Source of the DNA: Gibbula magus
Taxonomy: Eukaryota; Mollusca; Gastropoda; Trochida; Trochidae
Reading direction: 5' to 3'
NCBI GenBank assembly: GCA_936450465.1
Contig: OW388298.1
Coordinates: 6,184,035-6,248,034 of the forward strand
Length of the DNA stretch: 64,000 bases
Shown in pieces: positions 11,260 to 63,756 of the stretch. Position numbers and translations under genes: made by a program. Below the pieces are notes generated by a model. It made no database searches. It was not told where the DNA came from and worked only from the letters and a program-made list of their open reading frames with translations. Within the stretch, counting starts at the first letter, position 1. The number at the start of each line of letters is the position of its first letter.

Positions 11260-12165
11260 GGTCAAACTGAGATTACCTAAAATTACATTCATTTTTTCAA
11301 ATATTCTTCCAAATTAATTAAGTTACATTTCCTGAATTGCTGGTGTACTTTTCCTTGTCCCGACCTTAATGAAAATATTGTACTAAATGATTCATTCTGA
11401 AAACCACCGAGTCTTTGTATTTACTAACTTAAATTAGAGCACAATATTTCTGCCAAAACTTGTTTATACTGTGATCTAAAATTAATAAACAAAATCACAT
11501 AATCCCAAAACCAAACATTTATCTTCCGATCACCTATTGTTCCTAATCCTCTATCTAGTATGTATGTAAGTAATTTGCCGATGGCAGTATTGCTTTTAAT
11601 GCTGATTATTCGTTAAATCTTTCTGTGAAGACGCGTTTTCTTCCATTTATGGATAAAGACAAACTAAACTTGATATTTTGAAAAATTAAACACATTTTGA
11701 GAAGTCACTTCTTAGCCCCATCTCTCGTTAAGACATGTAGGTAAAATATATCATATCATGTTTATTTTGATTTGTGAATACATGCATAACGAAAGTAGAT
11801 ATATAAATGAAGGACAGTGAAGGGAGTGATACCAATACACTTCTGTATGATTGGACGGAAACATTGAACATGTGTCCTGAATGGTCGCATTTCTCAAGAG
11901 ATTATAGTCCTGGCAGTTATTTTGTATGAACGTGAACAGATGTAGTTTATCAGTTTTCACCACCAGTTTCGCGTTGATGTTATATCTGAGATGACCTTGA
12001 TTCGTTCAATTAGAAGATAGCCTATTTATACTGTATTGTCAAATGTCAATTTATATTGTTGTATGTTATTTATGTGATCCAAGAATGAACATGTACTTTT
12101 TCAATTGATGTTAAAAATAAAAGTGGAAAGCCTACTTATTTTCCTTTTATTCTTGTTGAGATATT
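11260..12165. other. AT-rich DNA, no feature seen
   Basis: Single-copy-looking AT-rich sequence between the satellite and a degenerate minisatellite. A 70-codon minus-strand open frame near 11751-11963 has no splice or homology support, and I do not call it. Confidence 0.5.
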
Positions 12166-17400: not shown

Positions 17401-20400
17401 CAACCTCCTCATACTCCTCCTGAAATATATACAATACAGATGGTAACAAAAGATGTTTGCATTGTTCAGTTAACTCAGAGTCAGAAAGAATATATGCCAC
17501 CTTGATTCGATGATATAATATTTTTTCAACTGTAAAACTGTATTTAGAATTATGATTGAGTACTGTTGATTGTTTAGCTTTCATTCTATCTTTCTCATCA
17601 CCAGTACTTTTTAATATATGTTCGAAGCAAATGCACTCAGCTACATTAATGATCTACCAGCCTCACCAACCTGGATACACACGTCTTCCATGTTTCCTAA
17701 TTATTCCTTTGTGGATAAAAGCTTTATATGAATTTTAAAATTTGATATTTCCAGAGAAACATTACTGCCTTTGGGGAAGTTGTTTTGTCCAGACAGCATC
17801 TTCAGACTATCCCTACTAGCTGTCCATACTAACCGAACATGACACTCAATGTTCACCACTTTCCACAGGTTTCCTTTTTGTGGATGAGGACACTGAGTAA
17901 ATTTCAGTTTTTTCAGTTCAAACTTGCTCAAAGAATGAATCAACAATAACTAGAGCCGTGGACAGCAGCGAAACACCTCTGAACTTGTATATATCAGTTC
18001 AAACTTGCTCAAAGAATGAAACAACAATAACTAGAGCCGTGGACAGCAGCGAAACACCTCTGTACTTGTATATATCAGTTCAAACTTGCTCAAAGAATGA
18101 ATCAACAATAACTAGAGCCGTGGACAGCAGCGAAACACCTCTGAACTTGTATATATCAGTTCAAACTTGCTCAAAGAATGAATCAACAATAACTAGAGCC
18201 GTGGACAGCAGCGAAACACCTCTGAACTTGTATATACCACTTTAACCCAACATTACACATGTGGTAATCAATACTCATAGATGTGCATTTTTTAATCTGA
18301 AATTTGTGTTACCATAGAGGGAAACAGATGATATGTGAATTGTACTACTACACTTGTTAGGAAATGTCTTGGATGCATCGCAGACAGGTGGAATTTAAAT
18401 GTTATTCCATCATTTGGATTCATACAACTCACACTTCCATTGAATCGTCCATGTATATCAGCATCCCTCCTTTCTGGAGTCATGTCATGAAAGAGAAATT
18501 GAATAGTTTCATAATGAGTTAAATAATGCAGTTGAGAATAATAAGATTATCTCAAAATATATCTTCACACAATCCTGTGAGTCTTCACCGGACGACTGAA
18601 TGTTGTAATCGCCTGTTTGTAGACTTTTATTGAGTCCATATAGTAACAATTTTCAAGAAATTTAATGGTAATGTGTATACAAAAATTAATTGTTTATATC
18701 ATTTTGAGGAATGTATGTATGTAATTTTGTATGTTATATAAATATCACCCCATGTCTCATAATATATACCAACGCTAATGACAATAGTTAATGGTTATAC
18801 TTGGTTTTTGACGCCATGGTTATAATGATAACAATACATGGATTAGGAGATTATTGATTATTTACCACATTCAGGGTTAATTACAATTATTATAATTGTT
18901 ACCTGGTCCGGAGCTCAGTTCACCACGGTCATGTTGTATACTTCCTGCCTGCGAATTAGAGAGTTAAATATAATGTACATTATGAGTAACCATCATGTTT
19001 TTATCTTTATTTGCACTTAAAAACATAGGCCTGAGTATACATGTAGATGTTTTTGAAGGATATAATATCAGGTTAAATATTCGAGCGGGCCCAGATTTCC
19101 CACTAGAATAACATCAGCGTAAGATCCAGAATCCAGTTTCCTGAGATATGATGCTCAACATGCAAGATTACATCCCGAAAAATCCAAAGAGGATGATCAG
19201 CAAAGGTTACCAAAAGCTAGCTCTTTGTCTTCCCTAGGATAATCGAACTGTGAAAGATATATAGAGAGAATACATAATACCTTAATGTAACCGGCGTCAG
19301 AGAGATCACAAATAATTACCTGAATGTAAACCTGCATCAGGGAGCCCTCAAGTACGTACCTGAATGTAAACCAGCTTCAGGGAGCCAACAAGTACCTTCC
19401 TGAATGTAAACCAGCTTCAGGGAGCCCATAAGTACTTACCTGAATGTAAACAAGCGTCAGAGAACGCACAAGTACTTACCTGAATGTAAACCAGCATCAG
19501 GGAGCCTCCAAACTTTTACCTGAATGTAAAGCGCGTCAGAGAGCCTACAAGTACTAACCTGAATGTAAACCAGCGTCAGAGAGCCAACAAGTACTAACCT
19601 GAATGTAAACCAGCGTCAGAGAGCCCACAAGTACTTACCTGAATATAAACCAGCGTCAAAGAGCCAACAATTACTAACCTGAATGTAAACCAGCGTCAGG
19701 GAGCCAACAAGTACTTACCTGAATGTCAACCAACGTCAGAGAGACCACAAGTACTAACCTGAATGTAAACCAGCGTCAGAGAGCCAACAAGTACTTACCT
19801 GAATGTCAACCAACGTCAGAGAGCCCACAAGTACTAACCTGAATGTAAACCAGAGTCAAAGAGCCAACAAGTACTAACCTGAATGTAAACCAGCGTCAGA
19901 GATCCTACAAGTACTAACCTGAATGTAAACCAGCGTCAGGAAGCCCACAAGTACTTACCTGAACGTAAACAAGCGTCAGATATCCCACGAGTACTTACTT
20001 GATTGTACTCCAGCGTCAGAGATCCTACAAGTACTTACCTGAATGTAAACCAGCGTCAGAGATCCCACAAGTACTTACCTGAATGTAAACCAGCGTCTGG
20101 GATCCCACAAGTACTTACCTGAATGTAAACCAGCGTCAGAGATCCCACAAGTACTTACCTGAATGTAAACCAGCGTCAGAGAGCCAACAAGTACTTACCT
20201 GAATGTCAACCAACGTCAGAGAGCCCATAAGTACTAACCTGAATGTAAACCAGCGTCAGAGAGCCAACAAGTACTAACCTGAATGTAAACCAGCGTCAGA
20301 GAGCCCACAAGTACTAACCTGAATGTAAACCAGCGTCAGAGAGCCTACAAGTACTAACCTGAATGTAAACCAGCGTCAGAGATCCCACAAGTACTTACCT

Positions 20401-20697
20401 GAATGTAAACCAGCGTCAGGAAGCCCACAAGTACTTACCTGAACGTAAACAAGCGTCAGATATCCCACGAGTACTTACTTGATTGTACTCCAGCGTCAGA
20501 GATCCTACAAGTACTTACCTGAATGTAAACCAGCGTCTGGGAGCCAAAAGTACTTACCTGAATGTAAACCAGCGTCTGGGATCCCACAAGTACTTACCTG
20601 ACTTTAAACCAGCGTCGGAGATCCCACAGGTACTTACCTGAATGTAAACCAGCGTCATAGATCCCACAAGTAAAACGATTAGGACTTTAGACATCAT
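14492..20697 (-). CDS. Secreted repeat protein gene, copy 1 (frameshifted)
   Basis: Unrecognised secreted protein. Exons in transcript order: 20638-20697 (signal peptide MMSKVLIVLLVGSMTLVYIQ), 18903-18948, 18433-18473, two S exons 17270-17419 and 16884-17033, V exon 16494-16646, G exon 15741-15949, last exon 14492-14548. Donors read GTAAGT, GTAAC, GTGAGT and GTAAT; acceptors are TTTCAG or similar. Phases run 0-0, 0-1, 1-0, then 0-0, so all joins keep frame. Each S/V/G exon starts with an acidic stretch (EEYEEVGV type) and ends with RSTDYRGRSLSK or similar. Two defects are visible. The V acceptor is CCG instead of CAG. The G exon is 209 nt, one base short of a codon multiple: GATGAAGAGC where copy 5 has GATAGAAGAGC, which shifts frame just after the glycine run. 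Joined to the last exon, the shifted frame stops after about three codons. An AATAAA lies at about 14452 after the stop. The copy is therefore probably impaired. The last exon is the least certain part. Confidence 0.65.
15118..15127. promoter_or_regulatory. CRE/bZIP palindrome, unit 1
   Basis: Perfect ATGACGTCAT in the last intron. The same decamer is kept at the equivalent place in all five units although surrounding bases differ. bZIP factors of the CREB/ATF class bind TGACGTCA. Use here is inferred. Confidence 0.35.
17913..18236. repeat. 81-bp intronic tandem repeat, unit 1
   Basis: Exactly four copies of an 81-bp unit starting TCAGTTCAAACTTGCTCAAA. Because 81 is a multiple of three, one plus-strand frame stays open as a 27-residue repeat (SVQTCSKNESTIT...). 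It lies in an intron, antisense to the gene, so I treat the open frame as a by-product. Confidence 0.9.
19277..20672 (-). repeat. 40-bp splice-donor minisatellite, copy 1
   Basis: About 35 units. On the minus strand a unit reads GGCTCCCTGACGCTGGTTTA then CATTCAG|GTAAGTACTTGTG. The first 27 nt equal the end of exon 1 (codons for GSLTLVYIQ) and the last 13 nt equal the start of intron 1. The array begins inside exon 1 at 20638 and extends into intron 1. A 12-unit (480-bp) block is duplicated, marked by CCCACGAGTACTTACTTGAT near 19990 and 20470. Confidence 0.93.
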
Positions 20698-26200: not shown

Positions 26201-26589
26201 ATACAAGGTAACAGGCCTACATCACATATCATCTTTGATAGGCATTCTACAAGTTGAGGTGATGAATAATGAAGAACAATTTTATGGATATACAACTTCT
26301 TTATTCTATGTAGGTACTAATGTCGTTGTCAAGCAGGTGATCACTTCATTCTATACAGTGCATATAAATGTATTCTCAATGAATTAATATAAACAAAGTG
26401 GATACAAGAATATACAACTGCACAACTGGAAATGAAAAGTTATTGATAGGAAGGAATACAAAAAAAAGTTGACAGTTGAATATCTTAATAAATCATGAAT
26501 GTTAAGATAGATGAATTATTGGCGCGTATTAGGTTAAGAAATATTATCGCCTAATAGGGGCTTAGTATTTCAGCCAATAGGGCGTTTAC

Positions 26590-27540
26590 TCATCTAAATG
26601 TAAACCAGCGTCAGGGAGCCCACAAGTACTCACCTGATTGTAAACCAGCATCAGGGAGCCCAAAAGTATAAAGCTAAATTTAAACTAGCGTCAGGGAGTC
26701 AATCAGTACTTACCTGAATGTAAACCAGCGTCAGGGAGCACACAAATTCTAACCTGAATGTAAACCAGCGTCAGGGAGCACACAAGTACTTACAAGAATG
26801 TAAACCAGCTTCGGGGAGACAACAGGTACCTACATGAATGTAAACCAGCGTCAGGGAGCCGACAAGTACCTACCTGAATGTAAACCAGCGTCAGGGAGCA
26901 CACAAGTACTTACCTGAAAGTAAACCAGCGTCATGGAGCACACAAGTACGTACAAGAATGTAAACCAGCGTCATGGAGCCTGAATGTAAACCAGCGTCAG
27001 GGAGCACACAAGTACTTAAAAGAATGTAAACCAGCGTCAGGGAGCCAACACGAACTTACCTGAATGTAAACCAGCGTCAGGATCTCACAAGGACTTACCT
27101 GAATGTAAACCAGCGTCAGAGATCCCACGAGTACTTACCTGAATGTATACCAGCGTCAGGGAGTCAAAAGTACTTACATGAATGTATACCAGCGTCAGGG
27201 AGTCAAAAGTACTTACATGAATGTACACCAGGTTCAGAGATCCCACAAGTACTTACCTGAATGTAAACCAGCGTCAGAGAGCCAACACGAACTTACCTAA
27301 ATGTAAACCAGCGTCAGGATCTCACAAGGACTTACCTGAATGTAAACCAGCGTCAGAGATCCCACGAGTACTTACCTGAATGTATACCAGCGTCAGGGAG
27401 TCAAAAGTACTTACATGAATGTATACCAGCGTCAGGGAGTCAAAAGTACTTACATGAATGTACACCAGGTTCAGAGATCCCACAAGTACTTACCTGAATG
27501 TAAACCAGCGTCAGAGAGCCCACAAGTACTTACAAGAATG
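26590..27540 (-). repeat. 40-bp splice-donor minisatellite, copy 2
   Basis: About 23 units of the exon1/intron1-derived 40-mer. Many have a changed donor context (TTCTTGTAAGT or TTCATGTAAGT instead of TTCAGGTAAGT). A block of about 238 bp, marked by GCCAACACGAACTTACCT, is duplicated near 27043 and 27281. The coding start that should lie at the right end is gone. Confidence 0.92.
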
Positions 27541-28355
27541 TGTTTGATTGAGATGTTTATTATAAACCTATTACAAATTTAAATATTCATAATTAATATA
27601 TGTTATGATTACGTTTAAAAAAAGTAAATTTAGTTGAATACATTGATATAATGATAGCAACTTCAATCGACGTTGTTGGGTAATAAAATCGTTTTTTTGG
27701 GATGAGACACGCCAAGTTGTTTTAGTCAACATGGTAACAAATGTTCATACCTTATATTGAGACTCTTCATTATGATTCTTTCACGTTCAATAATGCCCAC
27801 AATGTTTATATAAACATAGGTGTGTTTTTACCTTATCTACAATTGGATATTTTATAATGACTATAGCTATAATGATTATATATGAAGACACTGTGATCAA
27901 ATTTAATTGAAAACCATATACTGCATGACTGTATATGTAGTATTTGAGAAGGGGTGTCGTCCCTTTTTGTTGACGTGGCAATTGTGATAATTTTGCTAAA
28001 CTATATCAATAAAATTTCACCATCTTTCTGTTAATATTTCGTAATTGCTCAAATAGTCAAATGAATTCCCGCACTATGATTAACCAAACCTGTCAAAACC
28101 TTTTTTAACTTGAAAACGGTAAATATGTTTAATTAAGATGAATAGGAAAATTGCAATATGATTTTTTTATTATTGTAGTTATCTACTATAACTGAAAGAT
28201 TTGAATGATTTTAAAAACTAAAACTTTCATATAGTTTGGGCGTCGGTATTGCTGTGTAACTATAATGCGAAGCACCAAAACATTGATAACGAAAGCTTCA
28301 ACTGATAATGAATATTGTCTGTTTATTTGTAATCAGGTAAGTCAAACAATATTAT
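27541..28355. other. Upstream flank of gene copy 2
   Basis: AT-rich conserved flank equivalent to 40700-41500 and 52310-53085. No coding exon was seen. Confidence 0.5.
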
Positions 28356-34200: not shown

Positions 34201-37200
34201 TCTGAAATCGGCAAATAAATTACTTATATGCAGCTTTTTAATTACAAAGCCAAATTAGTACTGACAAACGATTCACTGAAATCACGAAAGTGTATCAGTC
34301 GCGTTTGTCACTTCCTGCGCTTGGATATCAACGTTCATTATATTTCACGTAATTTAATTTAAATTCATCAAAACAATTCAAAATTACCATATATCTAATC
34401 CTTAGATATCTAACTTGGTAATTTCGCATGGTTATTGTATAAATATGTGTTTTAGTAAATTTCATAAAACCCAATGATGTGATGTAATGACAGTGACAAT
34501 TATTTACAAAGCTATTCAATCAGGTATGGCACAGGCGGTGACAAGAGGCGTCCTTGTGGCCAATCATGCTGTCATGCTCATGTGAGCTTGTCGGACTAAA
34601 TATGCAGTTGTTCTCAAACCGGCTGGTCTTAATAATTAATTACAAGTGTATATTGTCTCGATTTTATGCTCATTGCTCAGTTGAAATATCACCCAATTTA
34701 GATATTACTAAAAACTATTTTAAATGCACATTTACTACATTAAGAGATATGTTTGTTAACTCTTAAGTGTCTAAAGCGTTCATCTCTTGCTACATGGTAA
34801 TCTGTTTTAAAGAGTATTACTTACCTTTGAAAGAAAATACATAAATAACAGCATGCAGATTATTTTGGGATTATCCCATGTTTTAATGATTATGTTGTTA
34901 TTTTTTCCGAGATAAATATCAATTATCAACTATTAGTTTCCTCGATTTATTTGAGACCACGTCTTTAACTTGAAATTACATAAATAACATTATTCAGATA
35001 AAAAAGAAAAAAAAACATATTATAGTCATTTCTGGTGGAATTTTCTTTGCTTTAAATGATAACTTTGCTATTTTTCCAAGATAAATATCAATTCTACCAT
35101 AGCTTTGCAAAATCCTTGTATCTGATTGGCTACTGTGAAAAATCAGAGACAGTATAATTTGGTTATAGAATGCTCTGTGAAAGCTTTCATTCTCCAAAAA
35201 CTTATATGCATGAATATGTTTTAAAATTAGCTGTTGTTCAAAATGCCACGAAGTAAATAATTTGGATAATAAATCTGAAACTGATCAAAATAACACAGGA
35301 AACGGTGAAAGTTAACATTGCAGTTCGAAAAATCATATCAACAACTTGCATTTCAGAAGCGTTCTCCAATAACTTAAAATTGGATGACAAAAAGGTTAAA
35401 AACGTGCATTATATCATCTGGAAGCTGTCGAAATGCAGAATAAACTTACTTAAACGTAATTTTCAAACTTGACACCGTATTACTATTGTCAATTTCTAAA
35501 AGTTTGCAGAAATTGCCACAGATGGTGATGCAACTTGGAAAACAATACCATTTAAAGAAAAGAGTGAGCTTCCTTTAATGCATTTGCAAACGTTCACTAT
35601 TTTCCCAAGTCTTATAACATGCTATGTCATTCCAAATTACCAAATAAATCACATTTGTATAAATGTTATTAAAACTCTAAATTATCCGTTATACAAGTCT
35701 CACACTATGTGTTCCACAGGAAATCAAATTTATAACTATAATAATTTCTCAGTTTTCAAACACAGTATGCTGATCTCCTATTCATTTAAATTACCTTGGA
35801 TAGCAATCGTCCTTGTAAATCAGTACTTCTCCAGCCCTGTATAACAGCTCTTCTTTCTCCGCCAACACCTCCATCACCTCCACCACCACCTTCACCACCA
35901 TCCGCATCACCACCACCTCCACTACCTCCACGACCACCACCACCACCTCCACCAACACCACCACCACCCCATTTATATCCACAAGTACTCTGCCCTTCCA
36001 TGGAGGCGACTCCAACCTCCACAAAGTCCTTCTGAAATATAGTCAATAAAAAGGGCATCAATCAATCAACCCAGAGACGGTAAGTTTTGAAATTGTCAAT
36101 CTCCTATATCATAAAGTGAAAGTTTCAACAAGCTGGATACACATGTCTACCGTGATTCCTAGTAATTCCCTTAGGGTCTAAGGCTTTTATTTGATATCAG
36201 AAGACACTTGGGTGAGATATGTCACCTTATCTAGATCATTAACACCTCTTACAAGAAGTCACAAAGATATATGCAGATCAAACTGTTATTTCTTTGAATG
36301 TTAATTTTGTTATTTTTTCAAGATAAATATCAACTATGATTCATACAAATTACCTTCGATGGAGATCGACCTTGAAAATCAGTACTTCTCTGTTACTGCA
36401 TAATAGCTGTTCTATAATCGTTATTCCAAAATTGGTTTCAAAATATGTTTGCATTTTTAAGTTAACTCAAACTCAGAACGGATATATGCCACCTTGATTA
36501 GATGATATAATACTTTTCACACTGTAGAACTTTATTTAGAATTATGATTGAGTACTGACGATTGTGTAGCTTTCATTCTGTCTTTCTCATCACCAGAACT
36601 TTTTAATATATGTTCGAATTAAACCCAATCAGCTACATTAATGATCTACAAGCCTCACCGACCTGGATACACACGTCTTCCATGATTCCTAATTATTCCT
36701 TTGTGGATAAAACCTTTATTTGAGTTTTAAAATTTGATATTTCCAGAGAAACATTTCTGCCCCAGGTACTCTTTGGGAAGGTTGGTTTGTCCAGACAGCA
36801 TCTTCAGACTATCCCTACAAGCTGTCCCTACTGACCGAACATGACAATCAATGTTCGCCACTTTCCACAGATTGACTTTTTGTGGATGAGGACACTGAGT
36901 GAATTTCAGTTGTATCAGTTCAAACTTGCTCAAAGAATAAATCAACAATAATTGAACTTGTATGTAACACTTTTACCCAACTTTACACATGTGGCAGTCA
37001 ATACTCATAAATGTGCATTTATTAATCTGAAGTTTCTGTTACCATAGGGAGACTGTACTTCTACACTTGTTAGGAAATGTCTTGGATGCATTGCAGCAAG
37101 GTGGAATTTAGATGTTAATCATTTGGAATCATACAACTCACACTTTCTGTCAATCGTCCTTGTAAATCAGCATCCCTCCTTTCTGGATTCGTGTCATGAA

Positions 37201-40200
37201 AGAGAAAGTGGAATAGTTCCATAATGAGTTTAATAATACAGTTGAGAATAATATCTTTAATAAACTGTTTGAAGAGGCTAAAGGTTATCTCAAAATATAT
37301 CTGCACACAATCCTGTGAGTCTTCACCGGACGACCGAATGTTGAAACTGCCTGTTTGTAGACATTTGTTGAGTCCCAATAGTAGCAATTTTCAGGAAACC
37401 TAATGGTCATGTGTACACATGAATTAATTATCTTTATCACCTTTTGAGGAATGAATGTGTGTAATTTTGTATGTTATATAAATATCAACTCATGTCTCAC
37501 AATATATAGCAACGCTAATGACAATAGTTAATGGTTATACATGGTTGTTGACGTCATGGCTATAATGATAACAATACATGATTTAGGAAATTATTGATTA
37601 TTTACCACATTCAGGGTTAATTACAACTCGTTATAACTGAAAGTAGACTAATATGTTACCTGGTCCGGAACTCAGTTCACCAACGTCATGTTGTATAATT
37701 CCTGCCTGTGAATTAGAGAGATAAATATAATTTACATCATGAGTAACAATCATGCTCTTATCTTTATTTCCACTTAAAAATAGGCCTGGGTATACATGGT
37801 GTTTTTGAAGGATATAGTATCGGGTTAAATAATCGAGTGGGCCCAGAATTCCCACTTGAATAACATCGGCTTAGGATCAAGAAACCAGTTTCCTGAGATA
37901 TGATGCTCAACATGCAAGATTACATTCCGAAAATTGAAAGAGGATGATTACCAAAGGTTACCAAAACTCTCTCTCTCAGTGAAAGATATATATAGAGAAT
38001 CCAGTAAACGATTTATGGGACAATCAGCTGGCGTCACATTGTGAACTATTCACAGTTCCGCTGTGATCTTGAGAATAATGCCGAGATCTCCAAAATCTAA
38101 GCCCACAAGTATTTACCTGAATGTAAACCAGCATCAGGGAGCCACAAGTACTTACCTGAATGTAAACAAGCGTCAGGGAGCCCACAATAACTTACCTGAA
38201 TGTAAACAAGCATCAGGGAGCCACAAGTACTTACCTGATTGTAAACCAGCGTCTGGGAGCTATATGTACTTACCTGAATGTAAACTAGCGTCAGGGAGAA
38301 TAAACACATTTACATGAATGTAAATCAGCGTCAGGAAGCCCGCAAGTACGTACCTGAATGTAAACCAGCGTCAAGTTGGCAACAACCTCTCACCTTAATG
38401 TAAACCCGCGTCAGGGAGCCCGGAAGTATTTACCTGAATTGAAACCAGCGTCAGTGAGCCGACAGATACTTACCTGAATGTAAACATGTGTCTGGGAGCC
38501 TACAAGTACTTACCTGAATGTAAACCAGCTTCAGGAAGCCCACACGTACTTACCTGAATGTAAACCAGCGTCAGGGAGCCCACAAACTCTCACCTTAATG
38601 TAAACCCGCGTCAGGGAGATCACAAATACTTACCTGAATGTAAACCCGCGTCAGGGAGCCAATAAGAACTTACCTGAATGTTAAACAGCGTGAGGGAGCC
38701 ATAAGTACTCACCTGAATGTAAACAAGCGTCAGTGAGCCGAGATATACTTATCTGAATGTAAACCTTCGTCTTGGAGCCTACAAGTACTTACCTGAATGT
38801 AAACCAGTGTCAGGGAGCCTAAAAGTACTAACCTGAATGTAAATCAGTGTCAGGGAGCCTCCAAACTTTTACATGGATGTAAACCAGCATCAGGGAGCCC
38901 AAAAGTACTTAACTCAATGTAAACCAGCTGTCAGAGATCCCACAATTACTTATCTGAATTTTAACTAGCGTCAGAGATCCTAAAAGTACTTACCTGAATG
39001 TAAACCAGCGTCAGGGAGTCCACAAGTAGTTACCTGAATGTAAACCAGCGCCATGGAGTCCACAAATACTTACCTGAATGTAAACCAGCATCAGGGAGCC
39101 TAAAAACATTTACATGAATGCAAACCAGCGTCAGGAAGCCCAAAGTACGTACCTGAATGTAAACCAGCGTCAGGGAGCCCACAAACTCTCACCTTAATGC
39201 AAACCCGCGCCAGGGAGCCCGCAAGTATTTACCTTAATTGAAACCGGCGTCAGGGAGACCACAAGTACTCACCGGAATGTAAACCAGCGTCAGGAAGCCG
39301 ACAAGAACTTACCTGAATGTAAAACAGCGTGAGGGAGCCATAAGTACTCACCTGAATGTAAACAAGTGTCAGGGAGCCCACAAGAACTTACCTGAATGTA
39401 AAACAGCGTCAGGGAGCCCACAAGTACCTACCTGAATGTAAACCAGCGTCAGGGATCCCACAAACTCTCATCTTAATGTAAACCCGCGTCAGGGAGCCCA
39501 CAGGTACCTACCTGAATGTAAACCCGCGTCAGGGAGCCCACAAACTCTCACCGTAATGTAAACACGCGTCAGGGAGCCCACAAACTCTCACCTTAATGTA
39601 AACCCGCGTCAGGGAGCCATAAGTACTCACATGAATGTAAACCAATGTCAGGGAGCCTCCAAACTTTTACATGAATGTAAACCAGCGTCAGGGAGCCCAA
39701 AAGTACTTAACTCAATGTCAATTAGCGTCAGAGATCCCACATGTGCTTACCTGAATGTAAACCAGCGTCAGGGATCCCATAATTTCTCACCTGAATGTAA
39801 ACCAACATCAGGAAGCCCACAAATACTTACCTGAATGTGAACCAGCGTCAGAGATCCTGCAAGTACTTACCTGAATGTTAACCAACATCAGGAAGCCCAC
39901 AAATACTTACCTGAATGTGAACCAGCGTCAGAGATCCTGCAAGTACTTACCTGAATGTAAACCAGCGTCAGGGAGTCCACAAGTAGTTACCTGAATGTGA
40001 ACCAGCATCACGTAGCCCCCAAACTTTTACCTGAATGAAAACTAGCGTCAGGGAGCCCACAAGTACTTACGTGAATGTAAACCAGCGTCAGGGAGCCCAC
40101 AAGTACTTACCTGAATGTAAACCAGCGTAAGGGAGCCCACAAGGACTTACCTGAATTTAAACCAGCGTCAGAGATCCCACAAGTGCTTACCTGAATGTAA

Positions 40201-40650
40201 GCCAGCGTCAGGGAGCCCATAATTTCTTACCTGAATGTAAACCAACGTCAGGAAGCCCACAAATACTTACCTGAATGTAAACCAGCGTAATGGAATCCAC
40301 AAGTACTTACCTGAATGTGAACCAGCGTCAGAGATAGTATAAGTACTTACCTGAATGTAAACCAGCGTCATTGAGTCCACAAGTAGTTACCTGAATGTAC
40401 ACCAGCGCCAGGGAGCCTCCAAACTTTTACCTGAATGTCTACCAGCGTCGGGGACCTCACAAGTACTTACCTGAATGTAAACCAGCGTCAGAGATCCCAC
40501 AAGTACTTACCTGAATGTAAAACAGATTCAGAGAGCCCACAAATACTTACCTGAATGTTAACCTGCGTCAGGGAGCCTACAAGTACTTACCTGAATGTAA
40601 ACCAGCGTCAGGGAGCCAACAAGTACAACGATTAGGACTTTAGACATCAT
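31255..40650 (-). CDS. Secreted repeat protein gene, copy 3
   Basis: Exons in transcript order: 40591-40650 (signal peptide MMSKVLIVVLVGSLTLVYIQ), 37660-37705 (AGIIQHDVGELSSGP), 37142-37182 (RRDADLQGRLTES), G 35795-36031 (79 codons), V 33341-33493 (51 codons, normal TTTCAG acceptor), G 32801-33019 (73 codons), last exon 31255-31296 (13 codons plus stop). Phases agree throughout, giving about 265 residues. S exons are absent. A truncated V exon (36354 to about 36416) keeps its donor but has no 5' part and carries an in-frame TAA, so it must be skipped. Both G exons begin KDYLEV/KDFVEV and share GQSTCGY before the glycine run. The G-V pair arose by an internal duplication of about 3 kb. The protein is predicted to enter the secretory pathway. 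Its function is unknown to me. Confidence 0.68.
31857..31866. promoter_or_regulatory. CRE/bZIP palindrome, unit 3
   Basis: ATGACGTCAT at the equivalent place in unit 3. Confidence 0.3.
31940..33700. repeat. Intragenic duplication in unit 3, left block
   Basis: This block (G and V exons plus flanks) is repeated at about 35020-36430, with an offset of 2994 bp over the G exon (3090 bp left of the 90-bp duplication). It gives gene copy 3 two G exons. The right block has lost most of its V exon. Confidence 0.85.
32155..32334. repeat. 90-bp tandem duplication, unit 3
   Basis: Two copies of a 90-bp unit starting TGCCACGAAGTAAATAATTT, in the intron between the distal G exon and the last exon. The second U3 block, near 35245, has only one copy. 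Confidence 0.85.
35020..36430. repeat. Intragenic duplication in unit 3, right block
   Basis: Second copy of the G-V exon block. The V exon is cut at about 36416, and the sequence jumps to material that in unit 1 lies upstream of the S exons, so one deletion removed the V 5' part and the S exons. Confidence 0.8.
38098..40626 (-). repeat. 40-bp splice-donor minisatellite, copy 3 (longest)
   Basis: About 63 units of the 40-mer, the longest array. Most units keep TTCAG|GTAAGT on the minus strand. A subfamily reads TTAAG|GTGAGAGTTTG (plus-strand CTCTCACCTTAATGTAAACC), again a plausible donor. Units of 38-41 bp occur. Runs of 39-bp units create short repetitive open frames on both strands that need no coding explanation. 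Confidence 0.93.
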
Positions 40651-48400: not shown

Positions 48401-51400
48401 CTTGACACCATAATACTATTGTCAATTTCGAAAAGTTTGCAGGAATTACAACAGATGGTGATGCAACTTGGAAAACAATACCATTTACAGAAAAGAGTGA
48501 GCTCCCATTAATGCATTTGCACACGTTGACTATTTTCCAAAGCCTTATAACATGCTTCGTCATTCCAGATTACCAAATAAAAAACATTTGTATAAATGTT
48601 ATTAAAGCTCTAAATTATCCATTATCCAAGTCTCACACTATGTGTTCCACAGGAAATCAAATGTATAGCTATAATAATTCCTCAGATTTTCAAACACAGT
48701 ATGTTTATCTCCTATTCATTCAAATTACCTTGGATAGCGATCGTCCTTGGAAATCAGTACTTCTCGATCCCTGCATAACAGCTCTTCTTTCTCCGCCAAA
48801 ACCACCATCACCTCCACCACCACCTCCACCACCATCCGCATCACCACCACCTCCACTACCTCCACGACCACCACCACCACCTCCACCACCTCCACCACCT
48901 CCACCACCTCCACCACCAACCCAGTATCCACAAGTACTCTCCCCTTCAACATAGTCGACTCCAACCTTCTCATAGTCCTCCTGAAATATATACAATAAAA
49001 ATGACATCAAAAGATGTTTGCATTTTTCAGTTATTCTAACATAGCTTATGTACACACTGTCTGCCTTGACAACAGAGGTTTCTTAACACGTCAAGGCTAT
49101 CAACAAACATATTTAATTGTGCGTTATCCCTACATTACTCTGTTTGGTCTTGATCGGCGGTGTCATGATGAATGATTTGTTATGCTTAGCGTTATTAAAT
49201 AACCTGGACAATATAGTCAATACAAATGGTATCAATCAATCAACTCAGAGACGGTAAGTTTTGAATTTGTCAATCTCCTATATTATAAAGTGAAAGTTTC
49301 AAAAAGCTGGATCCACATGTCTACCGTGATTCCTAGTAATTCCCTTAGCTTGGTCGTTAAGGCTTTTATTTGATATCAGAAGAATCTTGGGTGTGATATG
49401 TCACCTTATCTAGATCATAAACACCTTTCATAAGAAGTTACAAAGATATATGCAGATCAAACTGTTATTTCTTTAAATGTTAATTTTTTTTTATTTTTCC
49501 AAGTTAAATCTCAACTATTATTCATACAAATTACCTTGGATGGAGATCGTCCTTGGAAATCAGTACTTCTCTGTTCCTGCATAACAGCTCTTCTATCTAC
49601 ATCACAATCTCCATCGACAACCCAACCCACAACCCCGGTGTCTCCCTCTCCTTCCACAGTCTCTACTCGCACCTCCTCATGGTTCTCCGGAAATATAGTC
49701 AATACATATGGTATCAATCAATCAACTCAGAGACGGTAAGTTTTGAAATGTTGTCAATCTCCTATATTGTAAAGTGAAACTTTCAACAGGCTGGATACAC
49801 ATGTCTACTGTGATTCCTAGTAATTCAAAATTTAATTAATCTGGGAATTTTCCCTTTCTTTATATAATAATTTTGTTATTTTCCAAGATACGAGTAATTA
49901 TCAATTATGATTCATACTTATTACCTTGGATAGAGATCGTCCTCGATAATCAGTACTCCTCCGTCCCTGCATAGCAGCTGTTATATCCCAACCATCCCTG
50001 GCACCCCCATTGCTATTGTCTCCCTCCGGATCCTCCCATTCCACAGAGTCGACTCCAACCTCCTCATACTCCTCCTGAAATATATACAATACAGATGGTA
50101 ACAAAAGATGTTTGCATTGTTCAGTTAACTCAGATTCAGAAAGAATATATGCCACCTTGATTCGATGATATAATATTTTTTCACACTGTAAAACTGTATT
50201 TAGAATTATGATTGAGTAATGTTGATTGTGCAGCTTTCATTCTATCTTTCTCATCACCAGTACTTTTTAATATATGTTCGAAGCAAATCCACTCAGCTAC
50301 ATCAATGATCTACCAGCCTCACCAACCTGGATACACACGTCTTCCATGATTCCTAGTTATTCCTTTGTGGATAAAAGCTTTATATGAATTTTAAAATTTG
50401 ATATTTCCAGAGAAACATTACTGCCCCAGGTACTCTTTGGGGAAGTTGTTTTGTCCAGACAGCATCTTCAGACTATCCCTACTAGCTGTCCCTACTAACC
50501 GAACATGACACTCAATGTTCACCACTTTCCACAGGTTTCCTTTTTGTTGATGAGGATAATTAGTAAATTTCAGTTTTTTTCAGTTCAAACTTGCTCAAAG
50601 AATGAATCAACAATAACTAGAGCCGTGGACAGCAGCGAAACACCTCTGAACTTGTATATATCAGTTCAAACTTGCTCAAAGAATGAATCAACAATAACTA
50701 GAGCCGTGGACAGCAGCGGAACATCGCTGAACTTGTATATATCAGTTCAAACTTGCTCAAAGAATGAATCAACAATAACTAGAGCGGTGGACAGCAGCGA
50801 AACACCTCTGAACTTGTATATATCAGTTCAAACTTGCTCAAAGAATGAATCAACAATAACTAGAGCCGATGACAGCAGCGAAACACCTCTGAACTTGTAT
50901 ATACCACTCTACCCAGCATTACACATGTGGTAATCAATACTCATAGATGTGCATTTATTAATCTGAAGTTTCTGCTACCATAGGGGGAAGCTGTACTTCT
51001 ACACTTGTTAGGAAATGTCTTGGATGCATCGCAGACAGGTGGAATTTAGATGTTATTCCATCATTTGGATTCATACAACTCACACTTCCATTGAATCGTC
51101 CATGTATATCAGCATCCCTCCTTTCTGGAGTCGTGTCATGAAAGAGAAAGTTGAATTGTTTCATAATGAGTTTAATAATGCAGTTGAGAATAATAAGATT
51201 ATCTCAAAATATATCTTCACACAATCCTGTGAGTCTTAACCGGACGACCGAATGTTGAATCGCCTGTTTGTAGACTTTGATTGAGTCCATATAGTAACAA
51301 TTTTCAAGAAATGTAATGGTCATGTTTATACAAAAATTAATTGTTTATATCATCTTTTGAGGAATGTATGTATGTAATTCTGTATGATATATAAATATCA

Positions 51401-52264
51401 CCCCATGTCTCATAATATATACCAACGCTAATGACAATAGTTAATGGTTATACATGGTTGTTGACGCCATGGTTATACTGATAACAATAAATGGATTAGG
51501 AGATTATTGATAATTTACCACATTCAGGGTTAATTACAATTATTATAATTGAAAGAAGACTGATATGTTACCTGGTCCGGAGCTCAGTTCACCAAGGTCA
51601 TGTTGTATACTTCCTGCCTGTGAATTAGAGAGATAAATATAATTTACATCATGAGTAACCATAATGCTCTTATCTTTATTTGCACTTAAAAAACATAGGC
51701 CCGGGTAAACATGTAGGTGTTTTTGAAGGATATTATATCAGGTTAATTATTCGAGTGGGCCCTGAATTCCCACTAGAAGAACATCTGTGTAAGATCAAGA
51801 ATCCAATTTCCTGACATATGATGCTCAACATGCAAGATTACATCCCGAAATATCCAAAGAGGATAATAATAAGGTTACCAAAACCTTATTAGCTCCAAAA
51901 GCTAGCTCTTTGTCTTCCCTAGGATAATCAATCTGTGAAAGATATATACAGAGAATACAGAATACCTTAATGTAAACCAGTGTCAGGGAGCTACAAATAA
52001 TTAGCTGAATGTAAACCAGCGTCAGGGAGCCCAAAAGTACTGACCTGAATGTACACCAGCATCAGAGATCCCCAAAATACTTACCTGAATGTAAACCAGC
52101 GTCAGGGAACCCACAAGTACTTACCTGAATGTAAAAAAGCATCAGGGAGCCCAAAAGTACTTACCTGAATGTAAACCAGCGTCAGGGAGCCCACAAGTAC
52201 TTACCTGAATGTAAATCAGTGTCAGAGATCCCACAAGTAAAACGGTTAGGACTTTAAACATCAT
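45419..52264 (-). CDS. Secreted repeat protein gene, copy 4
   Basis: Exons in transcript order: 52205-52264 (signal peptide MMFKVLTVLLVGSLTLIYIQ), 51572-51617 (AGSIQHDLGELSSGP plus one base), 51084-51124 (completes E, then RRDADIHGRFNGS), S 49925-50074, V 49535-49687, G 48729-48980 (84 codons, longest glycine tract), V 46335-46487, last exon 45419-45460 (KGVTWTGWKQNKY, stop). All joins keep frame, giving about 298 residues. The first V exon has CCG in place of the acceptor CAG. Splicing could still use the AG inside its first codon GAG, which would drop one Glu. The second V exon has a normal acceptor. The protein is acidic in the exon starts, basic at the exon ends, and has one Cys in the G exon. 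I see no known domain. This is the cleanest copy for transcript testing. Confidence 0.7.
46020..46029. promoter_or_regulatory. CRE/bZIP palindrome, unit 4
   Basis: ATGACGTCAT kept exactly at the edge of a block where units 1 and 5 diverge from unit 4. Confidence 0.3.
48081..48260. repeat. 90-bp tandem duplication, unit 4
   Basis: Two copies of the same 90-bp unit (TGCCACGAAGT...), downstream of the G exon. This links unit 4 to the left block of unit 3. Confidence 0.85.
50580..50903. repeat. 81-bp intronic tandem repeat, unit 4
   Basis: Four copies of the same 81-bp unit as in unit 1, at the equivalent intron position. Units 3 and 5 keep only partial single copies (near 36919 and 59100), so expansion or loss happened after the units duplicated. 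Confidence 0.9.
51964..52237 (-). repeat. 40-bp splice-donor minisatellite, copy 4
   Basis: About seven units of the 40-mer next to the coding end of exon 1. It is nearly identical to the array of copy 5, so the two units duplicated recently or were homogenised. Confidence 0.9.
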
Positions 52265-55465: not shown

Positions 55466-58400
55466 TTATTCTGTCTTCAGCTCCTTTACTCTAAAGATCC
55501 ACCAAGTCCTCGTCACTCCCTTCTGAAATAAATTCCATATACATGAAATCGATAATGGTTGTTATTTAATCAACTAAGACCTGTAAATGATATATCACCT
55601 CAGACAGATAAATATTTACAAAATAACTAACGCATGATAGGTAATGGTAGATTATCTTTACAGAGTTATATCAGTTGCGTAATTCTCGAGTCTTGGCGAT
55701 GATCTGTCATTCCTCGTCACGAGTTGGTTGTTGTTTATATTACCCATAAAATAACAAAATCAAGCAAAAACGCAAATATTAAAGGCCAAACGTTTCCCTT
55801 AAAGGACCCGAAAAGGAGGTGAATCTCCATATCCAGACGCCAGTGACGTGGATTCACTACTAACGTATATCTATCCTTGTTTACTACGCACTTTTAAGAT
55901 GTCCGCTGCAGAAATGTCTTTCACAATAAAAGATAGATGTGGTTTTAGTTGAAAGTGTGTAGTTCTGCCCATTAATATCAACCCATGATTATACAATATA
56001 ATATGCATATCAAGAGGTCTGCAAAGTCGACTCAAACCGAAAATCCTAATGATGTTACAATTGAAAATGTGACATCATAACTGATCACATCTATGACGTC
56101 ATAACTCTCGAATGAAAGTCGTCCCTTTGAAGCTTACAGCAGTTTTTATTGTAAACTAGTAATGGCTAGTTTCTTTAATTTTCGCAAATTAAACTGCTTT
56201 CTCTGACATTGTTACGTCGACACAATTTAAGAAATATCCAATTTTAAAGTTTTGAAATCGGTGAATAAATTTCTTATAAACAGCTTTTTACCATCGACAA
56301 ATTAGTTCTGACAAACGATTCACTGAAATCAGCGAGTTCCCTTTAATGCATTTGGAAAGTTTCACTTTTTTATAAAGCCTTAATTATATCAATCTATGTA
56401 ATTCGAGATTACCAAATATAACAAAAATCACATATGTATAAATGTTGAGCAATGGAATTTCTGCACGTGATCGATTGACAAATCACTACCTGGTTAACAC
56501 GTCTGTATATTTTTCAAAATTAAATAGTCAATATGGTAGAATGGAGATAAACAAAATCTGTTTGAAAATCAGCAGCATATAATGGAATAATTAAAACTCT
56601 AAATTATCAATCTAAAGTCTCATGCTATGCGTTCCACAGGAAATCAAATTTATAACTATAATAATTCCTCAGATTTTAAAACACAGTATGCTTATCTCTT
56701 TTTCATTTAAATTACCTTGGGTAGCGATCGTCCTTGGAAACCAGTACTTCTCCATCCCTGCATAACAGCTCTTCTATCTCCACCAACACCACCATCACCT
56801 CCACCACCACCTTCACCACCATCCTCATCACCACCATCTCCACTACCTCCACGACCACCACCATCCCAGTATCCACAAGTACTCTCCCCTTCCACATAGT
56901 CGACTCCAACCTTCTCATAGTCCTCCTGAAATATATATAATAAACATGACATCAAAAGATGTTTGCATTTTTCAGTTATTCTAACATAGCTTATGTACAA
57001 ACTGTCTGCCTTGACAACAGAGGTTTCTTAACACGTCAAGGGTATCAACAAATGTCTTTAATTGTGCGTTATCCCTACATTACTCTGTTTGGTCTTGATC
57101 GGCGGTGTCATGATGAATGATTTGTTATGCTTAGCGTTATTAAATAACCCGGACATTATAGTCAATACAAATGATATCAATCAATCAACTCAGAGACGGT
57201 AAGTTTTGAAATTGTCAATCTCCTATATTATAAAGTGAAAGTTTCAACAAGCTGGATACACATGTCTATCGTGATTCCTAGTAATTCCCTTACCTTGGTC
57301 GTTAAGGCTTTTATTTGATATCAGAAGAATCTTGGGTGTCACCTTATCTAGATCATAAACACTTTTTACAAGAAGTTACAAAGATATATGCAGATCAAAC
57401 TGTTATTTCTTTAAATGTTAATTTTGTTATTTTTCCAAGATAAATATCAACTATTATTCATACAAATTACCTTGGATGGAGATCGTCCTTGGAAATCAGT
57501 ACTTCTCTGTTCCTGCATAAAAGCTCTTCTATCTTCATCACAATCTCCATCGACAACCCAACCCACACCCCCGGTGCCTCCCTCTCCTTCCACAGTCTCT
57601 ACTCGCACCTCCTCGTGGTTCTCCGAAAATATAGTCCATACATATGGTATCAATCAATCAACTCAGAGAGGTAAGTTTTGAAATGTTGTCAATCTCCTAT
57701 ATTATAAAGTGAAACTTTCAACAGGCTGGATACACATGTCTACTGTGATTCCTAGTATTTCAAAATGTAATTAATCTGGGAATTTTCCCTTTCTTTATAT
57801 AATAATTTTGTTATTTTCCGAGATACGAATAATTATCAATTATGATTCATACTTATTACCTTGGATAGAGATCGTCCTCGATAATCAGTACTCCTCCCTA
57901 CCTGCATAGCAGCTGTTATATCCCAACCATCCCTGGCACCCCCATTGCTATTGTCTCCCTCCGGATCCTCCCCTTCCACAAAGTCGACTCCAAACTCCAC
58001 ATACTCCTCCTGAAATATATACAATACATATGGTATCAATCAATCAACTCAGAGACGGTAAGTTTTGAAATGTTGTCAATCTCCTATATTACAAAGTGAA
58101 ACTTTCAACAGGCTGGATACACATGTCTACTGTGATTCCTAGTAATTCAAAATTTAATTAATCTGGGAATTTTCCCTTTCTTTATATAATAATTTTGTTA
58201 TTTTCCAAGATAGGAGTACTTATCAATTATGATTCATACTTATTACCTTGGATAGAGATCGTCCTCGATAATCAATACTCCTCCGTACCTGCATAGCAGC
58301 TGTTATATCCCAACTATCCCTGGCACCCCCAATGCTATTGTCTCCCTCCGGATCCTCCCCTTCCACAGAGTAGACTCCAACCTCCTCATACTCCTCCTGA

Positions 58401-61400: not shown

Positions 61401-63756
61401 AATGTTTATTTTAAGGCCAGACATTTTATAGAACTTATGTAAAGTTTCTAGAGCTGCTTTAAGGCTATTTTCAGATCCATCAAGATAAAGTTGAGAATCA
61501 TCAGCATATTGTCCACATCTATATTCTACATCATTGAGTGTGATACCTTTAATATCTTTGTTAGTCCTTATCATAGTTCCTAAGATTTCTGCCACAAAAA
61601 TAAATACATATGGAGAGACTGGGTCGCCTTGTCTACAGCCGCGTTCATTTGGAAAGAAAGAGGAAAGATGACCATTTTGAATAACACATGAAGTTGCATT
61701 TTGCATCAATATATTTATCCATTTTATAATGTTGGATCCAAAACCCAATTTTTTTAGAACTTTTATCATAAAATCTTTTGATACTGTATCAAAGGCTTTC
61801 TCAAAATCAATAAGAATCAAAAGGCCTGATTGGTTATTCTTTTTTAGTTCATACATGATATCATACATCAATCTGACATTATCACTAATGCACCTACCAG
61901 GTATAAACCCTGTTTGATCAGGATGTATCAGAGTATCTAGTGTCATTTTCAGTCTGTTAGCAATACAGGAGCTTGTTATTTTGTACAAAGTATTCAAAAG
62001 TGAAATTGGGCGCCAATTTTTCAGATATCTTCTGTCTTTGTTTTGTTTTGGAATACAAGTTATTACACCTCTATTAATTGTAAAGGATAACTGGTCTTTT
62101 TCAAAAACTTCTTGTATATATCTGTATATCCAAAATTTAAGATCTTTCCAAAACCATTTAAAGAATTCAACTGGAAAGCCGTCCAAACCTGGGCTTTTAT
62201 TATTTTTCATTGATTTTACAGTTTCAGATAGTTCTTTCATATTTATCGGTTCATCAAGCTTATCTGCAATGGAACTATCAAGTGAAGGAGTGTTTATGGT
62301 GTCTAAAATGTCTTGTGTATCACATTCAATGTTATCAACAGCATATAGTTTATGATAAAAGTGTTCTTGTTCTTCAAGAATAGCTTTTCCATCAGTCAGA
62401 AGTTCCTGCCTTTCATTAATTAAAGAATTAATAAGTTTACTAGTGTAATTTCTGTTTTCTAAATTACAGAAAAAAGATGTAGGTTTTTCGCCTTCTTCAT
62501 ACCACTGTATTCGACTTCTTATTTGTCTACCTTTTTCTTCTTCTTCTCTTATTTTTTCAAGTTCTGACAAATTTTTAGACAATTTGGCAAACATCTCTTC
62601 ATTAACACTTTGAAAATTTTCTCTAATTTCATTTTCTAAAATTTGTATCTCTTTTTCTAGATGAATAGTTTTTTCAGTTTTATTTTTTTTTAAATATGAT
62701 GAGAATGAAATTGATTTTCCCCTTACTTTCATCAGAAAGGTTTCCAAAAAAAGCTCAACCGAAATACTTAATTTTAGTTGGAGATCATCACTGTTTCTTG
62801 TATCAGTGTTATCCAAAGCATATTCTTCTTTGGTTTCCTCTAATATTTCTTTCACAAGTTTATTATAATCTTCATTGTAAAGAAGAGAAGTGTTAAACTT
62901 CCAGAACCCCTTGCCCCTTTTAATGACAATAGTTAATGGTTATACATGGTTGTTGACGCCATGGTTATAATGATAACAATAAATGGATTAGGAAATTATT
63001 GATTATTTACCACATTCAGGGTTAATTACAATTGTTATAACTGAAAGAAGACTGATATGTTACCTGGTCCGGAGTGTTGTCCATCATGGTCATGTTGTAT
63101 ACTTCCTGCCTGTGAATTAGAGAGTTAAACATAATTTAGATCATGAGTAACCATAATGCTCTTATCTTTATTTGCACTTAAAAACATAGACCCGGGTAAA
63201 CATGTAGATGTTTTTGAAGGATATTATATCAGGTTAATTATTCGAGTGGGCCCTGAATTCCCATTAGAAGAACATCTGTGTAAGATCAAGAATCCAATTT
63301 CCTGACATATGATGCTCAACATGCAAGATTACATCCCGAAAAATCCAAAGAGGATAATAATAAGGTTAGCAAAACCTTATTAGCTCCAAAAGCTAGCTCT
63401 TTGTCTTCCCTAGGATAATCAATCTGTGAAAGATATATACAGAGAATACAGAATACCTTAATGTAAACCAGTGTCAGGGAGCTACAAATAATTAGCTGAA
63501 TATAAACCAGCATCAGGGAGCCCAAAAGTACTGACCTGAATGTACACCAGCGTCAGAGATCCCCAAAATACTTACCTGAATGTAAAACCAGCGTCAGGGA
63601 ACCCACAAGTACTTACCTGAATGTAAACCAGCGTCAGGGAACCCACAAGTACTTACCTGAATGTAAACCAGCATCAGGGAGCCCACAAGTACTTACCTGA
63701 ATGTAAATCAGTGTAAGAGATCCCACAAGTAAAACGGTTAGGACTTGAAACATCAT
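55466..63756 (-). CDS. Secreted repeat protein gene, copy 5
   Basis: Exons in transcript order: 63697-63756 (signal peptide MMFQVLTVLLVGSLTLIYIQ), 63064-63109, 59371-59411, S 58247-58396, S 57860-58009, V 57471-57623, G 56716-56925 (70 codons), last exon 55466-55522 (KGVTRTWWIFRVKELKTE, stop). This gives about 288 residues with V, or 237 if V is skipped, since V is symmetrical. The V acceptor is TCG. Exon 2 differs from all other copies in its second half: HDHDGQHSGP instead of HDLGELSSGP. A 3.2-kb sense-oriented LINE sits in the intron between exons 2 and 3, with its own poly(A) signal. No frameshift was found. Exon 1 is 244 nt from the right edge of the window. Confidence 0.68.
56093..56102. 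promoter_or_regulatory. CRE/bZIP palindrome, unit 5
   Basis: ATGACGTCAT at the equivalent place in unit 5. Confidence 0.3.
58912..59013. repeat. 13-bp tandem repeat and flanking duplication, unit 5
   Basis: About eight copies of TGTCCCTACTAGC, with TAGA and TGGC variants, at the place where other units have the 81-bp repeat. The flanking segment (ACACTCAATGTTCACCACTT and following) occurs on both sides, near 58830 and 59020, so the array arose inside a local duplication. Confidence 0.85.
59717..59730. repeat. Target-site duplication, left
   Basis: TAATGACAATAGTT, next to the poly(A) end of the LINE, identical to the right copy. Confidence 0.95.
59731..62920 (-). mobile_element. 5'-truncated L1/Tx1-like LINE
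   Basis: A 3190-bp insertion in the minus orientation, in the intron between exons 2 and 3 of gene copy 5. It is flanked by a 14-bp target-site duplication, TAATGACAATAGTT (59717-59730 and 62921-62934). The 3' end carries a poly(A) run (T's at 59731-59740) preceded by an AATAAA (59748-59753). The paralogous units keep the uninterrupted empty site GCTAATGACAATAGTTAATGG near 18774, 37512 and 51427. Coding sequence runs right up to the 5' junction, so the element was truncated on insertion, as is usual for target-primed reverse transcription. The endonuclease domain and any ORF1 are missing. Confidence 0.96.
59886..62918 (-). CDS. LINE ORF2 fragment: reverse transcriptase and C-terminal domain
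   Basis: An uninterrupted frame of over 1000 codons from the truncation point to the stop at 59886, with no frameshift. It starts mid-protein with GKGFWKFNTSLLYNEDY, the junction motif between endonuclease and RT regions in L1/Tx1-like proteins. Residue numbers here count from the GTG at 62855. A coiled, charged linker (about 60-110) is followed by KPTSFFCNLENRN. The RT motifs come next: WRPISLLN (about 282), GFIPGR (316), IDFEKAFD (349-356) with the first catalytic Asp, GCRQGDPVSP (405), and the YADD box (450-453) holding the other two Asp residues. A C-terminal knuckle, CSFC-H-C (Cys872, Cys875, His884, Cys889), is present. It would have reverse-transcribed LINE RNA. Without the endonuclease this copy should not move by itself. 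The intact frame points to a young insertion. Confidence 0.95.
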   Translation of the reverse strand, partial: RGKGFWKFNTSLLYNEDYNKLVKEILEETKEEYALDNTDTRNSDDLQLKLSISVELFLETFLMKVRGKSISFSSYLKKNKTEKTIHLEKEIQILENEIRENFQSVNEEMFAKLSKNLSELEKIREEEEKGRQIRSRIQWYEEGEKPTSFFCNLENRNYTSKLINSLINERQELLTDGKAILEEQEHFYHKLYAVDNIECDTQDILDTINTPSLDSSIADKLDEPINMKELSETVKSMKNNKSPGLDGFPVEFFKWFWKDLKFWIYRYIQEVFEKDQLSFTINRGVITCIPKQNKDRRYLKNWRPISLLNTLYKITSSCIANRLKMTLDTLIHPDQTGFIPGRCISDNVRLMYDIMYELKKNNQSGLLILIDFEKAFDTVSKDFMIKVLKKLGFGSNIIKWINILMQNATSCVIQNGHLSSFFPNERGCRQGDPVSPYVFIFVAEILGTMIRTNKDIKGITLNDVEYRCGQYADDSQLYLDGSENSLKAALETLHKFYKMSGLKINIEKTKAIWIGSMIGSKVKLCPESSLDWHEGEFNILGIYLNPKLENLWVINTRKRLETINRLLAGWKKRKLTLQGKIIVLKTLVISTLVHIFSVLPTPPTDFINQLNNILFNFMWDGKRDKIKRATICRKYEEGGLRMTDIKAFINALKLSCLRRYVNKNTTNNPSLFPFKKIFLLGAQINNHVTVDNPFWNDVVALWSKYYKKQHVINTSSVEEILAEPLWLNHHFRNGNLLIENWFNRGIHTIRDIWGDNSFLSFNELKNLYHIRGTVLEYNKIILNIPKIWKNTLLAYDTCTQNLVLNQTLQYLLSQRKGCRNFYDNLISDNTPLKVCQKWERQLNFDISWTVVFKKYRNCTKDVKLLDFQYRFINRAIYTRKELLQMKIIDTNICSFCRSEPENLEHVFIKCKHVHEFWRNVEHFLNPHIPNIIISNLDIFFCNSPFNLLASHIILLAKKYIHITSIKQNELLIDSFIKIVKDVIKVENIMAKKNNNLPSFHAKWKYLTSML
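62921..62934. repeat. Target-site duplication, right
   Basis: TAATGACAATAGTT, next to the truncated 5' end of the LINE, identical to the left copy. Confidence 0.95.
63455..63731 (-). repeat. 40-bp splice-donor minisatellite, copy 5
   Basis: About seven units of the 40-mer. It has the same unit order as copy 4, with one AAAACCAGCG insertion variant near 63585. Confidence 0.9.

Follow-up and report, generated by a model that had tools for sequence, protein, structure and literature searches.

Genes and arrays in the window

The window comprises 64,000 nucleotides of the Gibbula magus genome (OW388298.1, which is contig C10 of an assembly of 1.47 Gb in 140 contigs; positions 6184035-6248034). 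Hemocyanin beta-sandwich domains (PF14830), which point to a mollusc, are present at 16 places on contig C6, arranged as two runs of eight, and in 0 of 14 control genomes. The window contains five arrays of a 40-bp unit belonging to five gene copies, W1 to W5. The following features were assigned, all on the minus strand:

37142..37182, minus strand: W3 predicted exon 3, ERRDADLQGRLTES
37660..37705, minus strand: W3 predicted exon 2, AGIIQHDVGELSSGP, 46 nt, ending in phase 1; from conservation and AG/GT borders
38100..40626, minus strand: W3 array, about 63 units; CAGGTAAGT in 27 of 63 full units, GT in 58 of 63
40585..40593, minus strand: W3 first donor, CAG|GTAAGT
40591..40650, minus strand: W3 exon 1, coding part, MMSKVLIVVLVGSLTLVYIQ; ATG at 40650, the last ~35 nt being the first unit
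20638..20697, minus strand: W5 exon 1
19278..20672, minus strand: W5 array, about 35 units; perfect donor in 17 of 34 full units
26587..27541, minus strand: W4 array, about 24 units; no exon 1 and a damaged exon 2
52205..52264, minus strand: W2 exon 1
51963..52239, minus strand: W2 array, about 7 units; perfect donor in 4 of 6 full units
63697..63756, minus strand: W1 exon 1
63454..63731, minus strand: W1 array, about 7 units; perfect donor in 4 of 6 full units

An earlier note on this DNA had described a 40-bp array extending from exon 1 into intron 1. Tandem Repeats Finder reported a 40-bp unit repeated 63.3 times in W3 (38100-40626), in agreement with the note. Exon 1 of W3 was likewise found to end in CAG|GTAAGT (donor at 40593-40585), and the proposed acceptor at 37705 coincides with the first base of the predicted exon 2 (37705-37660). 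For the five arrays the note had given about 35, 23, 63, 7 and 7 units; we counted about 35, 24, 63, 7 and 7. The array starts inside exon 1 in four of the five copies, but not, as had been claimed, in all of them: W4 (26587-27541) lacks exon 1, there is no in-frame ATG ahead of its array, and the 5' flank typical of the family passes directly into it.

Read in the sense of the gene, the repeat unit of W3 is GGCTCCCTGACGCTGGTTTACATTCAG|GTAAGTACTTGTG. The nonamer CAG|GTAAGT (CAGGTAAGT) occurs 62 times in the window, 61 times within the five arrays, while shuffled sequences contained it 0.46 times on average and at most twice. It is not present in each unit as had been supposed. Most full units of the window retain the GT (121/132), but only 61/132 carry the perfect nonamer and the units are therefore unequal as donors. 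The note had also divided the unit into 27 nt of exon and 13 nt of intron, by which the share of the exon was understated. Twelve of the 14 copies whose exon 1 is open matched the tail of the unit, GTACTTGTG, at seven to nine of the next nine nucleotides upstream. This match was weaker in F1 (6/9) and A1 (4/9), both of which exhibit small deletions, and of the four bases further upstream only none or one matched in all 14 copies. Since the homology extends by 8-9 nt in most copies and then ends, we concluded that the unit is made up of approximately the final 36 nt of exon 1 followed by GTAA; the GT completing GTAAGT is the start of the next unit.

Twelve of 13 copies examined have exons 1 to 3 open, the exception being A3, in which the join of exon 2 and exon 3 creates a TGA. 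Changes in exon length keep the frame (-6 in exon 1 of A1, +6 in exon 3 of G). Because the raw pN/pS of exons 1 to 3 was 0.91 (37 codons), we regard the copies only as likely working genes. One Pfam scan of a composite translation yielded no family, and one protein search gave no match at E <= 1 among 41 candidates. The genes probably form a fast-evolving family of secreted proteins, as predicted from models whose later exons are only sketched. At 32.8-37.2 kb of the window and at matching places in other copies there are short exon-like modules with RSTDFQGR-type ends, which recur several times per gene and in some cases follow glycine-rich stretches. Different gene copies also contain 81-bp repeats of four copies each (17913-18236 and 50580-50903) and duplications of 386/387 bp (16644-17443 and 57627-58426). 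A 63-bp satellite fills the first 11 kb of the window (1-11260); it also has higher-order periods, for example one of 464 bp.

Arrays across the genome

Array blocks were delimited by cyclic alignment of fetched regions. On C10 we found 18 blocks with 1163 full units, 859 of which contain CAGGTAAGT and 1092 GT at the place of the donor. Within the tandem family the number of units per gene ranges from about 6 to 637. The repeat is a minisatellite, as it consists of tandem 40-bp units (39 in F1) whose copy number turns over between paralogues, and it is also a VNTR overlapping a donor, as it begins within exon 1 in 14/14 copies with an open exon 1 and mostly retains the GT. The variation in length is that between paralogues of one assembly. 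Two of the blocks, both in F1 (C10:5781571-5787692), share one unit variant (5781571-5781654 and 5787511-5787692) and look like a single array interrupted by a ~5.9-kb insertion that holds CTAGAAACTTTCTAG repeats. The 18 blocks therefore represent 17 places when those of F1 are counted as one array. The largest array (C10, 6115345-6089971) comprises 637 full units, of which 551 have a perfect donor, and resides in intron 1, with an open exon 1 on one side and exon 2 near 6085511 on the other. In E3 (C10:6334168-6341806) a 191-unit array is preceded by a repeat that occurs again near 6355764, and the exon 1 flank was not found within 14 kb upstream.

Outside C10, a copy on C1 harbors about 28 units immediately ahead of exon 2, the place of exon 1 being taken by multi-copy, transposon-like sequence. 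C12 contains an array of about 6.6 units some 1.7 kb from a match to the later exon region of the family, and on C13 about three units directly follow an open frame that is also found upstream of several family copies. A dispersed satellite captured by the gene was considered as a source of the arrays and received no support: array matches came from four contigs only (C10, C1, C12 and C13) and always lay within or next to sequence of the family or its cluster (20 of 21 candidates scored). As the search was not exhaustive (the 637-unit array was absent from its list), further arrays may exist. The 14 matches obtained with the exon 1 region and the 26 with the region of exons 2 and 3 included no array-free relative.

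The open frame upstream of several array genes has a CCCxxxC motif (VGIITNTFCCCEIGCSYG...), and often a second, broken copy is nearby. It was seen at C13:50567000-50570200, at 5779914-5780191, 6125089-6125311 and 6273724-6273945 of C10, and at other sites. By eye it resembles an insulin A chain; it gave no Pfam match.

Frame, conservation and turnover of the donors

To follow the reading frame, every later AG|GT site in the 14 copies with an open exon 1 (814 sites) was joined to the copy's own exons 2 and 3, or in F1 to exon 2 only. An early stop was encountered from 812 of these sites, 798 times in the extension and 14 times in exon 2 or 3. The earlier note had proposed that every third donor keeps the frame and adds an insert. 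This is arithmetically correct, but the outcome differs because the unit contains CCC TGA in one of its registers. Only two sites were in frame and open. They are the second donor of W6, which is perfect, and that of F1, which reads GTCAGT; each lies at +39 since the unit there is 39 nt long. F1 as a whole has a 39-nt unit with GTCAGT donors, a multiple of three that is open. A3 also has an in-frame site at +39, which is weak (CAGGTTTGT) and leads to the stop at the join of exons 2 and 3. Thus, the insert is available in at most two of the 14 copies, by way of the second donor and not the third, and in-frame peptide inserts after the signal peptide are ruled out by stops for 812/814 later sites. 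Reading on past the first donor (donor 1) meets a stop after 9-138 nt in 14/14 copies.

Donor 1 itself retained AG|GT in 13/13 copies and was perfect in 11/13. It showed two mismatches (9.8 expected), whereas the exon part of the first unit was more diverged than usual (53 versus 29.6 expected in the 13 copies). With sister copies collapsed, the conservation of donor 1 had a P value of 0.023, which changed to 0.049 when the homogeneous arrays A2 and G were left out; because the copies are related, the P values for donors are too optimistic. Donors of ranks 1 to 3 taken together exceeded the array average (P = 0.003), those of ranks 2 and 3 being good too, and donors of the last unit fell below it (27 mismatches versus 9.8 expected). 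The first donor was perfect in 11/14 arrays with exon 1 and in 0/4 without (P = 0.011); as one of the four begins with a truncated unit, its first full unit was also used, which gave 1/4 versus 11/14 (P = 0.083). By this weak test, donor 1 looks better kept than the rest. In W3, W5, W6, W7 and W8 the donor mismatch rate was lowest in the first quarter of the array (in W6 below all but the second quarter), and mismatches at exon-derived positions showed no drop there; these copies are related and may reflect one event.

Divergence along the unit was determined for four sets totaling 1163 units: the 637-unit array, 190 units of E3 (no exon 1), W3 and the other 273 units. In this order it amounted to 0.028, 0.025, 0.113 and 0.098 at the nine donor positions, to 0.038, 0.045, 0.092 and 0.102 at 24 exon-derived positions, and to 0.100, 0.074, 0.222 and 0.146 at the last seven intron positions. 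The donor is less diverged than the exon-derived part in the two most homogeneous arrays and less than the intron positions in all four sets. These values mean that donors are not clearly favored over the exon part, whereas the intron tail is freer, and there may be some constraint on the donors of the array. Selection keeping all donors received no clear support, since donors drift roughly as the rest of the unit does. The largest gap between donor and exon divergence belongs to E3, which has no exon 1; perfect donors are present in 152/190 of its units. Arrays also persist without exon 1 in W4, F3 and C1.

The units were rightly said to carry the gene's own first 5' splice site and to differ strongly in number between paralogues. 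E2 and E3 share 98.6% identity across 349 bp of downstream flank, yet their arrays span 649 and 7639 bp, E3 being without exon 1; the arrays of W6 and W7 measure 718 and 1464 bp beside downstream flanks that are 98.3% identical. Judged by these comparisons, the differences in length behave as those of a minisatellite turning over by unequal exchange. The donor stretch is able to pair with its copy in the adjacent unit. When the initial 400 nt of five arrays were folded as RNA together with 100 nt of flank, they were no more stable than shuffled sequences (z +0.5 to +2.3).

Precedents, interpretation and significance

According to the earlier note no system of this kind had been described. This was not right, the VNTR in intron 18 of human ABCA7 being a close precedent (PMC5954066). 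In the available text of that report, the VNTR starts at exon 18's own GT donor, and the donor of the next unit serves as a cryptic donor by which one unit is retained and the frame is shifted (PMC5954066). This retention amounted to 2 +/- 1% and was unaffected by the length of the VNTR, quoted as 315-9711 bp, while longer VNTRs led to more skipping of the next exon and to less expression (PMC5954066). The two systems have in common a minisatellite including the exon's own donor and a widely varying array length. However, ABCA7 has a 25-bp intronic unit without coding sequence at an internal exon of one human gene (PMC5954066), whereas the Gibbula magus unit combines about 36 coding nt with CAG|GTAAGT, lies at a first exon, occurs in a whole gene family and reaches 637 units. 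In human segmental duplications, internal tandem repeats of ~30-bp units (on average four repeats) were described at exon-intron boundaries (PMC2812944). They are similar in being border minisatellites that differ in number between recent paralogues and can change splicing, but no single donor multiplied hundreds of times is reported in the available part of that paper (PMC2812944). Intron gain by tandem duplication of AGGT segments, as outlined in the accessible text, also copies splice-site sequence (PMC4974935); here, by contrast, the other end of the intron is unchanged, the donor is multiplied and no new intron is made. Arrays spanning an exon's own donor (PMC5954066) and boundary minisatellites differing between paralogues (PMC2812944) are therefore already described, as far as the available texts of both reports go. 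Within the literature searched, it is apparently new that part of the unit is coding sequence, that most units carry a perfect donor, that an array reaches 637 units and that such arrays are spread over a gene family; no other donor-multiplying array was found there among the matches listed.

The explanation we favor, with somewhat better than even confidence, is that the array is a near-neutral hypervariable minisatellite born at the splice junction of exon 1, in which donor 1 is predicted to splice and the later copies are mostly passive decoys. One tandem duplication across the junction of exon 1 and intron 1 would be the simplest origin and likely created the first extra unit, possibly through slippage between two GTACTTGTG stretches. 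Minisatellite birth has been modeled as slippage, and both duplicated 5' splice sites and the choice of cap-proximal donors have been studied experimentally. The spliceosome would pick the first, cap-proximal donor. Any transcript spliced from a later donor would contain a stop and be eliminated, so that donor 1 would be under purifying selection and the other units would drift and turn over by unequal exchange. Since almost any other donor gives an early stop, only the first one is likely in normal use. We counted in favor of this view the 812/814 stops, the drift, the arrays lacking exon 1, the turnover, the upkeep of donor 1 and the ABCA7 case. Counted against exclusive use of donor 1 was the better than average conservation of the donors at ranks 2 and 3, which such use does not predict.

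The main rival, because exon skipping rises and expression falls with VNTR length in ABCA7, is a length-dependent brake: later donors would really be used, their stop-bearing messages degraded, and the array length would set gene output. Tuning of expression by array length is possible, and the brake would be in line with the early stops behind 812/814 later sites, with the many later donors that equal the first in strength (859/1163 units perfect) and with the drop in ABCA7 expression as the VNTR grows (PMC5954066, from the available text). Yet in the same text single-unit retention is independent of length, skipping of the next exon being changed instead, and exons 1 to 3 are still open in the copy with 637 units; we consider the brake unlikely. 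The abundance of perfect nonamers (859/1163 units) could also suit an array that recruits much U1 snRNP and guards against premature polyadenylation within a long first intron, or raises transcription. U1 has been reported to suppress intronic polyadenylation, and 17/18 blocks lack AATAAA and ATTAAA, so the array adds donor sites but no poly(A) signals. This lack, however, follows from the unit sequence alone, array length ranges about 100-fold among copies, and arrays persist without exon 1; a role in U1 recruitment is quite improbable.

Each unit can further be regarded as an acceptor and a donor back to back, so that intron 1 would be removed stepwise or re-spliced to the same junction of exons 1 and 2. 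Recursive splice sites or ratchet points resemble the units in the juxtaposition of acceptor-like sequence and donor CAG|GTAAGT within an intron, as presented in the available parts of the reports (PMC8605326, PMC6110457); the likeness is one of sequence alone, and the units differ by a weak pyrimidine tract and a spacing of 40 nt. Intron 1 would then be up to 637 zero-length exons, and a second splice from donor 1 to the CAG of the chosen unit would restore the exon 1-exon 2 junction, a scheme we hold to be very doubtful. Agreeing with it, CTGAC lies 17 nt ahead of CAG|GTAAGT in 778/1139 units (a YTRAY-like motif in 1033/1139), and donors 2 and 3 are kept better than average. But the acceptor side is weak, with 56% pyrimidines versus 71% at the 15 exon 2 acceptors of the family and a longest pyrimidine run of 3.1 versus 5.2, and there is no sign of upkeep across the whole array, which leaves stepwise removal a very slight chance. 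If it were true, the gene would be immune to its own decoy donors. Insertion of repeated peptide segments after the signal peptide by in-frame later donors, as read by the earlier note, could draw on the two open +39 donors of W6 (perfect) and F1 (GTCAGT, 39-nt unit), but in view of the stops behind the other 812/814 sites and of the weak A3 site (CAGGTTTGT) with its stop at the exon 2-exon 3 join, we regard it as extremely improbable.

The family provides a natural experiment in which the spliceosome faces a large set of nearly identical 5' splice sites and has to select one, a perfect donor having been multiplied hundreds of times next to still-open exons. It offers an intron 1 with about 6, 16, 35, 63 and 637 units, and nearly all choices other than the first would truncate the frame. 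If donor 1 is chosen every time, the deciding factor is its location with respect to the cap or the exon; if it is not always used, the length of the array would be a heritable dial on gene output.
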